DNA from: Kordia antarctica
GTDB taxonomy: Bacteria > Bacteroidota > Bacteroidia > Flavobacteriales > Flavobacteriaceae
Reading direction: 5' to 3'
NCBI RefSeq assembly: GCF_009901525.1
Contig: NZ_CP019288.1
Coordinates: 4,989,501 to 5,053,500, forward strand
Length of the DNA: 64,000 bases
Shown here: positions 49,986-55,537 of the stretch, piece by piece
How the letters are laid out: every line of letters begins with the position of its first letter
Position numbering within the stretch: the first letter of the stretch is position 1
The notes under the pieces: generated by a model
Databases searched by the model: none
What the model was told of the DNA's origin: nothing
The model's input: the letters and a program-made list of their open reading frames with translations, nothing else
Translations under genes and position numbers: made by a program

Positions 49986-50759
49986 TTATCTTTTCGGACT
50001 AAAGAAAGATGCTATTTTAGAAATAAAACTAGACTTTTCTTTTATACTAATTTCGAATTTCTGTTCGCAATGATGAAGTGAAATTTCAGTACTGATTCTC
50101 GATTTTACGTGCGATAGATTGATAATTGTTCTTTGTGTAATTTTCTCAAAATTGTACGGCTTCAACTCCTCGGATAAATTACTAATTGTCATACGAATGT
50201 TTTCTATGAGAACTTCGTCATTCTTTCCATAAATAGACACGTAATTCTTTTTTGCTTGACATCCTTCACGGTTTTTAGTGGTAATAATTTTCGCAGTCGT
50301 AATATAATAAGCATCTTCAGCTTTAAACATATAATTACTATCACCTACTGAAAGATTTATTTTGCCTGTTTCAACTCTGCCTTTAGTTTGAATTTTTCCA
50401 ATAATTTTATTCTTCAGAATTGTTTCAAAATCTTCTAAATCAAAAGGTTTACTCATGTAGCCAGAAATGTCTAAATTATTAATAATCTCACCATGTTTTC
50501 CAGTAGTAGAAGTTAAAAATACTACTTTTTTTGAAGAAGCAATTTTTTCGGAAAGTTGTATTCCATTAAGACCTGGCATATCAAAATCTACAATTAATAA
50601 GTCGTATGAATCATTGTTAATTTTATTGTAAGCATTTATAGAACTGTGATAACTTGAAACATGTTCTAAATTGTATGTCTTTGCAATTGTGTCAATTTTT
50701 TCCTTAACGTAAGAAAGCATTTTTGGATCGTCATCCACAAGAATGTATCGAATTTTCAT
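49986..50759 (-). CDS. LytTR-family response regulator
   Basis: A 257-residue regulator. Receiver domain: acidic pocket VDDDPKML, phospho-acceptor Asp in LLIVDFDMPGLNG near residue 57, Lys in MSKPFDLEDF near 105. C-terminal LytTR DNA-binding domain (YYITTAKIITTKN ... FEKITQRTIINLSHVK). It overlaps the histidine kinase gene by 4 bp, so they form a cognate pair. Confidence 0.92.
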   Translation of the reverse strand: MKIRYILVDDDPKMLSYVKEKIDTIAKTYNLEHVSSYHSSINAYNKINNDSYDLLIVDFDMPGLNGIQLSEKIASSKKVVFLTSTTGKHGEIINNLDISGYMSKPFDLEDFETILKNKIIGKIQTKGRVETGKINLSVGDSNYMFKAEDAYYITTAKIITTKNREGCQAKKNYVSIYGKNDEVLIENIRMTISNLSEELKPYNFEKITQRTIINLSHVKSRISTEISLHHCEQKFEISIKEKSSFISKIASFFSPKR

Positions 50760-51778: not shown

Positions 51779-51980
51779 CTATTCTTAGTTGTCTATGCGT
51801 GTTTCTTACTTTTTACTTATCACAAAAAGAACCACTTCTATCCCAAATATAGCTTGTCTGTCCCAAATAGGAAAATAAAATGTCAAAGAGTAGCATATTT
51901 GGTGCAAGAATAAGCGCTATTCGAAAGTAAAAGGTTTCTGTAGGAGAAACGTATTACAAATCTTTAAAAAAGTAAAAACG

Positions 51981-52115
51981 ATGAAAGATGTAAACAAAAT
52001 GACCAAAGAAGATTTGAAACGCATTGAAGAAGCTCATGGGCAAAAATCAAATCCAACACAAGAAGAAATAGATTTTCTTGAACGCGCAAAAAAGGCTGTT
52101 GCGCAAAATAAATAA
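51981..52115 (+). CDS. Small charged protein (44 aa) at the head of the viperin operon
   Basis: A 44-residue frame, MKDVNKMTKEDLKRIEEA, ending FLERAKKAVAQNK. It is helical and strongly charged, with Pro-centred QKSNPTQEE between two helices. It is on the same strand 34 bp before the next small ORF. No family recognised; coding is supported by protein-like composition and context only. Confidence 0.55.
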   Translation: MKDVNKMTKEDLKRIEEAHGQKSNPTQEEIDFLERAKKAVAQNK

Positions 52116-52149
52116 CAGCAATTAATAAATACTTTTAAATTTTAACATT

Positions 52150-52266
52150 ATGAATACACAAGACAAAGAAAATCAACCAATCAATCATCCTGATGATGTG
52201 AATCACGGAAATCAGATGAATCCAGATCATGAGGAATATCATCATTCAAGAGAAGAAAATGATTGA
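52150..52266 (+). CDS. Small His/Asn/Asp-rich protein (38 aa) overlapping the kinase gene
   Basis: A 38-residue frame starting MNTQDKENQPINHPDDVNH and ending HHSREEND. Its TGA lies inside the start region of the kinase gene (8-bp overlap), the arrangement of translational coupling. Hydrophilic, no cysteines. No family recognised. Confidence 0.5.
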   Translation: MNTQDKENQPINHPDDVNHGNQMNPDHEEYHHSREEND

Positions 52267-52792
52267 TAAGATCACTTTAAGTGGATTTGCTGGAAGCGGT
52301 AAATCCACTATTGGAAAAAATCTTCAAGAAGCACTCAATTTTGAGTTTATCTCCGTTGGGAATTTTTCAAGAAAGTTGGCTAATGAAGAATATAAAATGA
52401 CCATTAATGCATTTCAACAGAAGTGTACAAAAAATCCAAAATTAGATGCAGAGATCGACAAAAAGTTTCAAATAGAATGTAATTCGAAAGACAACTTAGT
52501 TATTGATTATCGACTCGGATTCAAGTTTATACAGAATGCTTTTCATGTATTGCTCAAAGTTTCAGACCAAGAAGCAGTAAGTAGAATTAAAGCCGCAAAC
52601 CGAACTGATGAGACAATTTCAGCGAAAGCGATAGACACTAGAAATGAAAACATGCGAACACGTTTTTTATCAAGTTATAACGTGGATTTTACCAACGAAA
52701 AAAACTATCATCTCTTGATTGATACAGATTCGTTAACACCGAAAGAAATCACGAATTTAATTATAGAAGAATTTAAAAAAATAACCATTTAA
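52259..52792 (+). CDS. CMP-kinase-like P-loop nucleotide kinase
   Basis: A 177-residue kinase from the ATG at 52259 (MIDKITLSGFAGSGKSTIG). The Walker A loop GFAGSGKST is at residues 9-17. SVGNFSRKLANEEYKMTINAFQQK, then NLVIDYRLGFKF and RIKAANRTDE, match the archaeal-type cytidylate kinase family (Cytidylate_kin2). It would phosphorylate CMP/dCMP or a related NMP. Ten bp ahead of the viperin gene, it recalls the vertebrate CMPK2-RSAD2 pair, in which the kinase supplies the nucleotide triphosphate that viperin consumes. Confidence 0.85.
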   Translation: MIDKITLSGFAGSGKSTIGKNLQEALNFEFISVGNFSRKLANEEYKMTINAFQQKCTKNPKLDAEIDKKFQIECNSKDNLVIDYRLGFKFIQNAFHVLLKVSDQEAVSRIKAANRTDETISAKAIDTRNENMRTRFLSSYNVDFTNEKNYHLLIDTDSLTPKEITNLIIEEFKKITI

Positions 52793-52802
52793 AATATAAA
52801 CC

Positions 52803-53714
52803 ATGAACACAGAAATTAAACAATTAAAAAGAAAAAATAGAATTGGAAGCACAGAAAAAGAGTCTAGAATGGCAATACCAAGCGTCAATTTTCACTTGTG
52901 GCAACCTTGTAATATGCGATGCAAGTTTTGTTTTGCTACATTTTTAGATGTGAAACAAACCATTTTACCAAAAGGACATTTACCAGAAGCAGAAGCTGTA
53001 GAAGTTGTAAAATCGTTAGCCAATTACGGATTCAAAAAAATTACATTTGTTGGTGGCGAACCTTTATTATGTAAATGGTTACCTAAATTAATTCGTACCG
53101 CAAAAGAATTAGGATTAAACACAACAGTAGTTACCAATGGAAGTAAATTAACAGACGAATTTTTACAACAAAACAAACCATATTTAGATTGGATTGCGTT
53201 GAGTATTGATAGTTTGAATAAAGAAACAAACATAAAAACTGGAAGAACAGAACGAAAAATTCCATTGACGGAAGCATTTTATAAAGACAGGATTAATGCT
53301 ATAAAAGCACATGGTTATAAATTGAAAATCAACACAGTTGTGAATGCTCATAATTATAAAGAATTAATGGTAGATTTTATTAAAGAAGCAAATCCGAAAC
53401 GATGGAAAATTTTTCAAGTATTACCAATTACTGGGCAAAATGATGGGAAAATAGAAGATTTAAAAATCACAACTGCACAATACGAAAGCTTTTTACAAAG
53501 ACATGAAGAGTTAGCCGTTTGTGTTCCAGAATCAAACGATGCAATTAAAGGAAGTTACGTAATGGTTGATCCGGCAGGACGTTTTTTTGACAATGCCGAA
53601 GGAACGCACAATTATAGCAAACCAATATTAGAAGCTGGTGTTTTTGAAGCCATTAAAGCTGTCAATTATGATATTGTAAAGTTTATTGATAGAAAAGGAT
53701 TTTACAATTGGTAA
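52803..53714 (+). CDS. Prokaryotic viperin (pVip), antiviral radical SAM enzyme
   Basis: A 303-residue radical SAM protein of the viperin family. Cluster motif CNMRCKFC (Cys36, Cys40, Cys43), preceded by SVNFHLWQP as in vertebrate viperin (SVNFHFTRQ). Further collinear matches to human viperin: ITFVGGEPLL, WIALSIDSLNKETNIKTGR, NPKRWKIFQVLPITGQN, SFLQRHEELAVCVPESN, GSYVMVDPAGRFFDN. It lacks the eukaryotic N-terminal amphipathic helix. Known pVips convert NTPs to 3'-deoxy-3',4'-didehydro-NTPs, chain terminators of viral RNA polymerases. C-terminal FYNW matches the end of the family. The base used here cannot be read from sequence. Confidence 0.95.
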   Translation: MNTEIKQLKRKNRIGSTEKESRMAIPSVNFHLWQPCNMRCKFCFATFLDVKQTILPKGHLPEAEAVEVVKSLANYGFKKITFVGGEPLLCKWLPKLIRTAKELGLNTTVVTNGSKLTDEFLQQNKPYLDWIALSIDSLNKETNIKTGRTERKIPLTEAFYKDRINAIKAHGYKLKINTVVNAHNYKELMVDFIKEANPKRWKIFQVLPITGQNDGKIEDLKITTAQYESFLQRHEELAVCVPESNDAIKGSYVMVDPAGRFFDNAEGTHNYSKPILEAGVFEAIKAVNYDIVKFIDRKGFYNW

Positions 53715-53938
53715 TTTAGAAAATCAATAAAATTAGATGGTTTCTTTTGGAATTATTCGTTAAATAAACCCACAGAAGAAAGAAACCTTTTTTAAATGAA
53801 AAATTAAAGATTGAGTGATTAAAAACTTCTATAATTCCAAATTTCTAACTAAGTCTTAGTTGCGCAAGCAAGTCTAAAAGTCTAAAAGCGAAGCGATCCA
53901 AGAGATTTCCGCCTACGCGGGAACGAGTTTAACCAAGT
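53715..53938. other. Intergenic region with small repeats between pVip and lysA
   Basis: It contains AAGTCTAAAAGTCTAAAAGCG direct repeats (53870-53890, with an AGCG unit as at 1231-1295) and TTCCGCCTACGCGGGAA (53907-53923), an imperfect palindrome of a type repeated in many flavobacterial genomes. No clear terminator or ORF. Confidence 0.5.
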
Positions 53939-55360: not shown

Positions 55361-55537
55361 ATGAAAAAAAGAAGCATTCAATCATTAGTATTAAACAAAA
55401 CAAAAATTAGTGAATTACAAGGGAATATTGGCGGACGTAAAGATACAGATGCTTGTCCAACAGCAAGTACATGCAGTTGTGTGAGTTGTAGACCAGCATG
55501 TAATTTGCAGCAAGCATCACAAGGTTGTCAAAGATAA
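55361..55537 (+). CDS. Lanthipeptide-like GG precursor peptide (58 aa)
   Basis: A 58-residue peptide not flanked by any modification gene. The leader MKKRSIQSLVLNKTKISELQ and GNIGG (GG at residues 24-25) match the class I lanthipeptide-type leader of Flavobacteriia. The core after GG has six Cys and several Thr/Ser (DACPTASTCSCVSC, RPACN, QGCQ), ideal for lanthionine or disulfide cross-links. No LanB, LanC or C39 transporter gene is in the window, so it must be processed in trans or be an orphan. Confidence 0.75.
   Translation: MKKRSIQSLVLNKTKISELQGNIGGRKDTDACPTASTCSCVSCRPACNLQQASQGCQR

Follow-up and report, generated by a model that had tools for sequence, protein, structure and literature searches.

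The 64,000-nucleotide stretch of DNA analysed here (positions 4,989,501 to 5,053,500 of NZ_CP019288.1; hereafter the window) comes from Kordia antarctica, whose genome is one contig of 5.5 Mb, and carries a prokaryotic viperin gene preceded by a CMP-kinase-like gene and two tiny open reading frames (ORFs), T1 and T2. Judged from its sequence, the operon is probably an inducible module of viperin and a helper (d)CMP or nucleoside monophosphate (NMP) kinase, under a dedicated, divergently encoded two-component switch of the LytS/LytTR type. An earlier note on this DNA had described the interval 51981-53714 as a viperin operon; that interval leaves out the adjoining regulator pair and the direct repeats that precede the operon.

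A sensor-regulator pair beside viperin

The genes divergent from the operon encode a LytS-like sensor histidine kinase (HK) and a response regulator (RR) with a receiver and a LytTR DNA-binding domain. Pfam matches of the RR to Response_reg (E = 1e-14) and LytTR (E = 1.7e-6) were both above cut-off, and the HK matched His_kinase with 17.9 bits, under the cut-off of 25.2. The HK is built of one N-terminal hydrophobic segment (by hydropathy), a long linker that by eye resembles a coiled coil, and a kinase core. HK residues H137, E250, N251, K254, H255, G256 and G303 and RR residues D10, D58 (the phospho-acceptor Asp) and K104 were invariant in 13 of 13 sequences, and both proteins look active. 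Hydropathy shows just one hydrophobic region, at the N-terminus, in each of the 13 HKs, and sensing of the signal therefore probably takes place within or beneath the membrane. The pair shares with LytS/LytTR systems the key kinase and regulator residues and the combination of receiver and LytTR domain; it differs in that the window HK, with its one hydrophobic segment at the N-terminus, lacks any recognised sensor domain, and in that the proposed target is an antiviral operon. In PADLOC, the HK had no match and the RR gave weak, receiver-only matches (PDC-M60C, E = 1.8e-5; PDC-M60B, E = 9.5e-5).

The recurrence of the pair was assessed at those 16 viperin loci of Bacteroidota for which sequence upstream was available: the window, L010-L016, L043-L049 and L059. 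L010 is from Kordia sp. 2-867, L011 from Lacinutrix mariniflava and L012 from a Saprospiraceae metagenome-assembled genome, and L041, L045, L046, L047, L048 and L049 correspond to genomes G398, G168, G294, G109, G390 and G033. Left out of the counts were L026, whose contig begins inside viperin, L042, on the same contig as L010, and L001-L009, L050, L051 and L058, which are shorter stretches of loci already counted. An HK and an RR lie beside the viperin operon at 12 of the 16 loci (window, L010-L015 and L045-L049), and at one further locus, L016, a single hybrid protein combines a receiver with a weak match to HATPase. Two layouts were observed. The pair is divergent beside kinase-viperin in the window, L010, L011, L012, L045 and L046, and likewise divergent beside viperin in L047, where no kinase was detected. 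In L013, L014, L015, L048 and L049, HK and RR are co-directional with viperin and immediately upstream of it.

Searches starting from the HK, whose subfamily is rare, led back to viperin. Homologues at E ≤ 1e-30 were present in four of 397 family genomes, in all four beside viperin, and in one of 375 class genomes (the query's own), the family and class searches having used overlapping genome draws. Viperin itself was present in 8/397 family genomes, in 2/11 genus genomes and, in a phylum draw, in 2/395 (own genome and G700). With the query genome set aside, the three HK genomes all fell within the seven viperin genomes of 396; a hand calculation, C(7,3)/C(396,3), gives a chance of about 3e-6 for this co-occurrence, adjacency not yet counted. 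Within the genus, the HK was found in 3 and viperin in 2 of 11 genomes. The exception is G398, the only viperin-less one of the six genomes in which the genus and family searches found this HK subfamily. A profile scan of 28 loci returned 12 RR and 12 HK matches, all belonging to pairs that stand beside viperin or, in L041, beside counterparts of the tiny ORFs (T1'/T2').

In the viperin tree, the window and L010 (support 100/99), L013-L015 (100/100) and L048-L049 (100/100) form separate groups, and L011, L012, L045, L046 and L047 group with lower support (88/91) together with L044, which has no pair. Because the pair recurs in separate groups whose joining the tree leaves unsettled, it would be either old and subsequently lost, or acquired more than once.

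Table 1 Features of the viperin locus in the window.
Feature	Position	Strand	Basis
LytTR-type response regulator, 257 aa, receiver and LytTR DNA-binding domain	49986..50759	-	Pfam; invariant residues
LytS-like sensor histidine kinase, 340 aa	50756..51778	-	Pfam (below cut-off); invariant residues; alignment
Three direct repeats, proposed response-regulator binding site	51820..51869	+	51820 TCACAAAAA, 51841 TCCCAAATA, 51861 TCCCAAATA; spaced 21 and 20 bp
T1, 44 aa, opens the rightward unit	51981..52115	+	ORF call; weak relatives in L041 and L011; absent from L010
T2, 38 aa, motif NQMNP, 8-bp overlap with kinase start	52150..52266	+	ORF call; conservation
CMP-kinase-like viperin-associated kinase, VakA type, 177 aa from ATG 52259	52259..52792	+	Pfam, NCBIfam, PADLOC, AlphaFold2, Foldseek
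Prokaryotic viperin, radical S-adenosylmethionine (SAM) enzyme, 303 aa	52803..53714	+	NF038283, PADLOC, 5vsl match, tree

Direct repeats and the case for a dedicated switch

Three TC[AC]CAAA-type repeats, spaced by exactly 21 and then 20 bp, are present in all eight divergent intergenic regions (window, L010-L012, L041 and L045-L047; the third box of L047 reads GCACAAA). Around the boxes, much of the remaining intergenic sequence diverges among these eight loci. The self-similarity of three boxes at 21/20 bp was scored against 1000 dinucleotide shuffles. None of the 1000 shuffles attained the score of the window, and the score was significant in 11 of the 13 regulator loci (the eight divergent ones and L013-L015), with at most 6/1000 shuffles reaching it. 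All 11 controls, taken upstream of five co-directional HKs, from four pair-less loci and from two other window stretches, were non-significant, with at least 269/1000 shuffles reaching the observed score.

The letters of the boxes vary between viperin groups, those of L013-L015 being quite unlike the divergent ones. A scan of spacings from 15 to 27 bp over the 13 loci gave 21/20 as the clear optimum, with a mean score of 21.6 versus 16.8 for the next spacing. Since the spacing was first noticed in the divergent loci, L013-L015 provide an independent check and the optimum over all 13 does not. Overall, direct repeats about 21 bp apart precede the operon at 13/13 regulator loci, 12 with viperin and one without. 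All five co-directional loci have their repeats between RR and viperin, and the three-box test detected none in the 200 bp before those HKs. A search of the window's own genome with a two-box pattern returned five places, and a reversed control one. The other four places lie inside ORFs and are thus probably chance matches, and a wider regulon of boxes in this genome was rejected.

According to PMC4847170, LytTR sites lack a common consensus and consist of a pair of repeats, each 9-11 nt long, with a spacer of 11-13 nt; PMC6193735 gives a similar description. The boxes of the window, 9-nt direct repeats with spacers of 12 and 11 nt, fit this published format at the level of sequence, and differ from it in number, with three boxes versus two.

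A very improbable alternative is that an ordinary kinase-viperin pair lies beside an unrelated two-component system, through chance or a shared island, and that the regulator acts on other targets. Such an arrangement would suit those viperin cassettes that by eye sit amid restriction-type genes, and also G398, which keeps the regulator without viperin. It accounts poorly for the position of the HK beside viperin in 4/4 of the HK genomes among 397, for the recurrence of the pair in separate viperin groups and in two layouts, and for the five co-directional loci, all of which place the repeats before viperin and, by the three-box test, none in the 200 bp before the HK.

Several observations weigh against a dedicated switch. 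Neither HK nor RR is present at 3 of the 16 loci (L043, L044 and L059), and one of these, L044, falls in the tree within a group whose other members have the divergent pair. The 16 loci, obtained by scanning for close relatives and from two draws of genomes, are unevenly sampled, and no more than five candidates per genome were scored when family and class were searched for the HK. Nine non-Bacteroidota loci (L017-L025) gave no HK or RR profile match (0/9), with profiles that were built from Bacteroidota and have lower sensitivity there. L048 and L049 were not significant in the 21/20 three-box test; L048 has a pair of boxes 21 bp apart (0/2000 shuffles), and L049 three boxes at 21/21 (1/1000 shuffles, the best of four spacings tried). 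A Pfam check for LytTR covered the regulators of the window, L014, L015, L045, L048 and L049; four of these (window, L045, L048 and L049) scored above cut-off for the domain, that of L015 scored below it, and for L014 the domain was unreported. The regulator sequence of L047 is incomplete at the contig end. Finally, G398 has the regulator, the boxes and T1'/T2' without viperin, and the regulator can therefore serve other genes.

At the three pair-less loci, the slot upstream of viperin is occupied by large proteins (634-827 aa). That of L043 has TPR repeats, that of L044 matches the PADLOC model 'Viperin-associated NERD' (E = 1.2e-6), and that of L059 had no PADLOC match. The NERD protein thus takes the upstream slot at one of the three loci that lack the pair; it is not found in the window.

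Viperin, its partner kinase and the tiny ORFs

The last gene of the operon certainly encodes, on profile and structural evidence, a true prokaryotic viperin. Its product matches NCBIfam NF038283 with 320.9 bits (cut-off 180), its best solved-structure match is 5vsl (RSAD2; E = 5.3e-46, query 21-303 on target residues 25-309), and the radical SAM CxxxCxxC motif is present as CNMRCKFC. These results bear out the earlier note, which had claimed the viperin identity, the collinearity with vertebrate viperin and the CNMRCKFC motif. That note had also named a MoaA-like radical SAM protein outside the viperins as the competing identity; this was rejected, with the MoaA model giving 80.1 bits against a cut-off of 284.05. 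The viperin of L010 is 73% identical to that of the window. Like pVip (NF038283; pVip in PADLOC), the window protein matches over its full length above cut-off, and its collinearity with vertebrate viperin extends to the C-terminus. In its surroundings it differs: the viperin-related PADLOC models met here cover kinases and a NERD protein, and the window HK matched no PADLOC model. As regards carriage by mobile elements, no viperin relative was found in the phage collection or in a close-relative scan of IMG/VR, and the HK was likewise absent from the IMG/VR search. Among plasmid records, 12 contained viperins, with identities of at most 43%.

The partner kinase ends 10 bases before the viperin start, as had been described, and the ORFs reported previously were all recovered at their given positions. 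The mechanical ORF call places the kinase start at 52229; the ATG at 52259, which gives 177 aa and an 8-bp overlap with T2, is the likelier start, and in Kordia sp. 2-867 the kinase start overlaps T2 in a like manner. The kinase matches the PADLOC models pVip-kinase (E = 1.4e-79) and VakA (E = 1.9e-39) and Pfam Cytidylate_kin2 (E = 3.7e-14). Its score against TIGR02173, the (d)CMP kinase equivalog, was 79.5 bits, below the cut-off of 102.1, and for this reason it is termed CMP-kinase-like and not filed as a CMP kinase. An AlphaFold2 model had a mean pLDDT of 91, and a Foldseek search with it returned 3hdt (putative kinase) first and 2h92 (CMP kinase) second, followed by many NMP and shikimate kinases. 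By profile, the protein is a P-loop NMP kinase nearest to CMP kinases, and CMP is a likely substrate.

Conserved kinase association in relatives, on which the earlier reading had depended, was also found: a homologue of the window kinase is present at 7 of 14 other Bacteroidota viperin loci (tblastn; L026 and L059 lie outside this count). In four of those seven, it is fused N-terminally to viperin (L011, 476 aa; L012, 475 aa; L045, 483 aa; L046, 471 aa). L013, L026 and L043 carry a kinase at the C-terminal end of a viperin-kinase fusion, and L048 has a different, thymidylate-kinase-like gene downstream of viperin, which also matches VakA. The pairing of kinase and viperin is already known and catalogued in PADLOC, whose 'Viperin-kinase fusion' and VakA models led us to reject it as a novelty. 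The window kinase matches both models, and the two proteins are fused in L011, L012, L045 and L046, whereas in the window and L010 they are separate genes.

Of the tiny ORFs, T2 is a real gene: its L010 counterpart is 71% identical over 38 aa, overlaps the kinase start in a similar way and shows an excess of synonymous change (pN 0.16, pS 0.39; dN/dS about 0.32 on few sites), and it was matched in 3/11 genus genomes, exactly those with the HK. T2 tracks the regulator more than viperin. T1, whose support is weaker than that of T2, is of uncertain status: its relatives in L041 (38% identity, E = 5e-4) and L011 are weak, it was not found in L010, and its match to a 47-aa ORF preceding kinase-viperin in L045 reached E = 0.006 by phmmer in a search of three targets. 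Neither T1 nor T2 matched Pfam, NCBIfam or PADLOC.

Similar peptides occur away from viperin. In G398, a T1'-T2' pair lies behind the boxes and beside the same two-component genes, without kinase or viperin. The next gene, of 241 aa, closely resembles the one downstream of viperin in L010, and the locus is a natural near-empty site. Lacinutrix (L011) has T1/T2-like ORFs behind a nucleotidase gene, and a similar small peptide, termed S46-type, before its kinase-viperin fusion. S46-type peptides were matched in 5/189 family genomes, one of the five being the window's own genome, where the match is weak and contains a stop, and in the viperin-less G045 and G091 they stand directly before similar-looking genes of 213-221 aa (L071 4981-5825 and L072 4367-5163); the S46-type peptide may be a recurrent leader-type ORF. 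The earlier note had regarded the tiny ORFs as an addition to the viperin system. This did not hold, and viperin-specific parts were rejected, since T1'/T2' in G398 and S46-type peptides in G045 and G091 all occur without viperin. For the same reason, the hydrophilic T1, T2 and S46 peptides look to be components of the promoter unit or its leaders rather than parts that define viperin. Separately, a remnant-like S46 relative with one stop was seen in the window's own genome (L077 2514-2636), near genes that by eye look IS66-type.

The switch might primarily serve T1/T2, as an older stress or membrane module, with kinase-viperin as later cargo behind its promoter. We regard this as rather unlikely. 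It draws on G398, where RR, HK, boxes, T1'-T2' and the 241-aa gene occur without kinase or viperin, and on the distribution of T2 in the genus, where the three genomes matched, of 11, are exactly those with the HK. Other observations speak against it: in L012, kinase-viperin lies behind the boxes with no T1-, T2- or S46-type ORF detected; in L013-L015 and L048, regulator, repeats and viperin occur with no convincing tiny-ORF relative between them; and only G398 of the six genomes with the HK subfamily is without viperin. The T1/T2 explanation is also compatible with a dedicated viperin switch, because viperin would still be under its control.

From the enzyme identities, gene order, recurrence of the pair, catalytic residues and spaced repeats, we infer a course of phosphorelay, binding, induction, substrate supply and antiphage outcome. 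Activated by a signal at the membrane or inside it, the membrane-anchored HK would autophosphorylate, and the phosphate would be passed to the RR, which would bind the three direct repeats and turn on transcription of T1-T2-kinase-viperin. The kinase would then raise the nucleotide pool for viperin, most likely CTP, and viperin would convert the nucleotide to its 3'-deoxy-3',4'-didehydro form, halting phage RNA synthesis. For other pVips, an antiphage outcome has been published, and the animal CMPK2-viperin pair favours a substrate-supply role for the kinase. The human viperin and CMPK2 genes are adjacent (PMC10058120), and the viperin products named in a passage of the review PMC12926258 are ddhCTP, ddhGTP and ddhUTP.

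More tentatively, and with slightly less than even confidence, viperin in Bacteroidota could be an infection-inducible effector, in which a small family of membrane-anchored HKs that lack a classical sensor domain detects phage from inside the cell, by sensing a disturbance of the membrane or of the nucleotide pool, and a multi-box LytTR site switches on kinase-viperin. If true, this would be a bacterial counterpart of the interferon-induced CMPK2-viperin pair, in which regulator and site would have changed in concert in three or more groups of viperins, and the parallel with the inducible pair of animals would extend to the regulatory level. Two-component control of viperin was not found in the literature searched, nor did that literature address what turns on this enzyme in bacteria, although it alters the nucleotide pool of its own cell; outside that set, the neighbourhood tables of the 2021 pVip paper could mention such genes. 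The viperin passages of PMC12926258 draw no link to two-component systems. Such a dedicated pair of sensor and regulator, acting on a defined site, would make viperin switching directly testable, and identification of the signal would show by what means a cell recognises infection before it produces a chain-terminating nucleotide. A regulator pair beside a defence gene, with boxes about 21 bp apart, could also serve as a search handle for other inducible defence operons.

Nucleotidase and other genes around the cassettes

Downstream of viperin in L011, L012, L045, L046 and L048 lies a 5'(3')-deoxyribonucleotidase-like gene (L011 6182-6592; L012 4781-5167). The L011 copy matches Pfam NT5C (E = 4.7e-15), and those of L012, L045, L046 and L048 are 60-84% identical to it. 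Among 199 family genomes, the viperin-linked copy scored 241 bits and the others at most 115; relatives at E ≤ 1e-20 were present in nine of the 199, and only the copy of G168 adjoins viperin. The nucleotidase was rejected as a fixed viperin partner, as it is not in the window and only one of these nine relatives lies beside viperin; it is possibly a further cassette part outside Kordia.

Its presence in these cassettes nevertheless bears on the role of the kinase, which might act on the viperin product or an analogue and not as a substrate feeder, with the 5'-nucleotidase trimming the pool. The five nucleotidase-bearing loci would fit such an arrangement. The window's own genome had no NT5 match at 1e-20, and the window therefore works without the nucleotidase; together with the argument for substrate supply drawn from the animal CMPK2-viperin pair, this makes a product-directed kinase improbable, and substrate supply remains our preferred role for it.

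Between viperin and the nucleotidase, a conserved-looking ORF of 97 aa was seen in L011 (5884-6177) and L012 (4458-4751), and also in L045 and L046. It had no match in Pfam (L011 copy) or NCBIfam (L011 and L012 copies). A similar-looking ORF of 96 aa lies behind the viperin-kinase fusion of L026. MoxR/RavA-like AAA genes, recognised by eye, lie shortly downstream of viperin in L013 (6403-8148), L016 (5655-7229) and L026 (1393-2991), in the last case with an additional 639-aa gene behind.

Past the viperin stop of the window, an inverted repeat, GGTTTCTTT..AAAGAAACC, spans 53739-53787, with a similar stretch in L010 (5930-5977); judged by eye, it looks like a terminator or hairpin. Further downstream, at 55361-55537 on the plus strand, a 58-aa ORF has a leader resembling those of class I lanthipeptides and a Cys-rich core, and scored 17.2 bits against NF038153, below the cut-off of 22.

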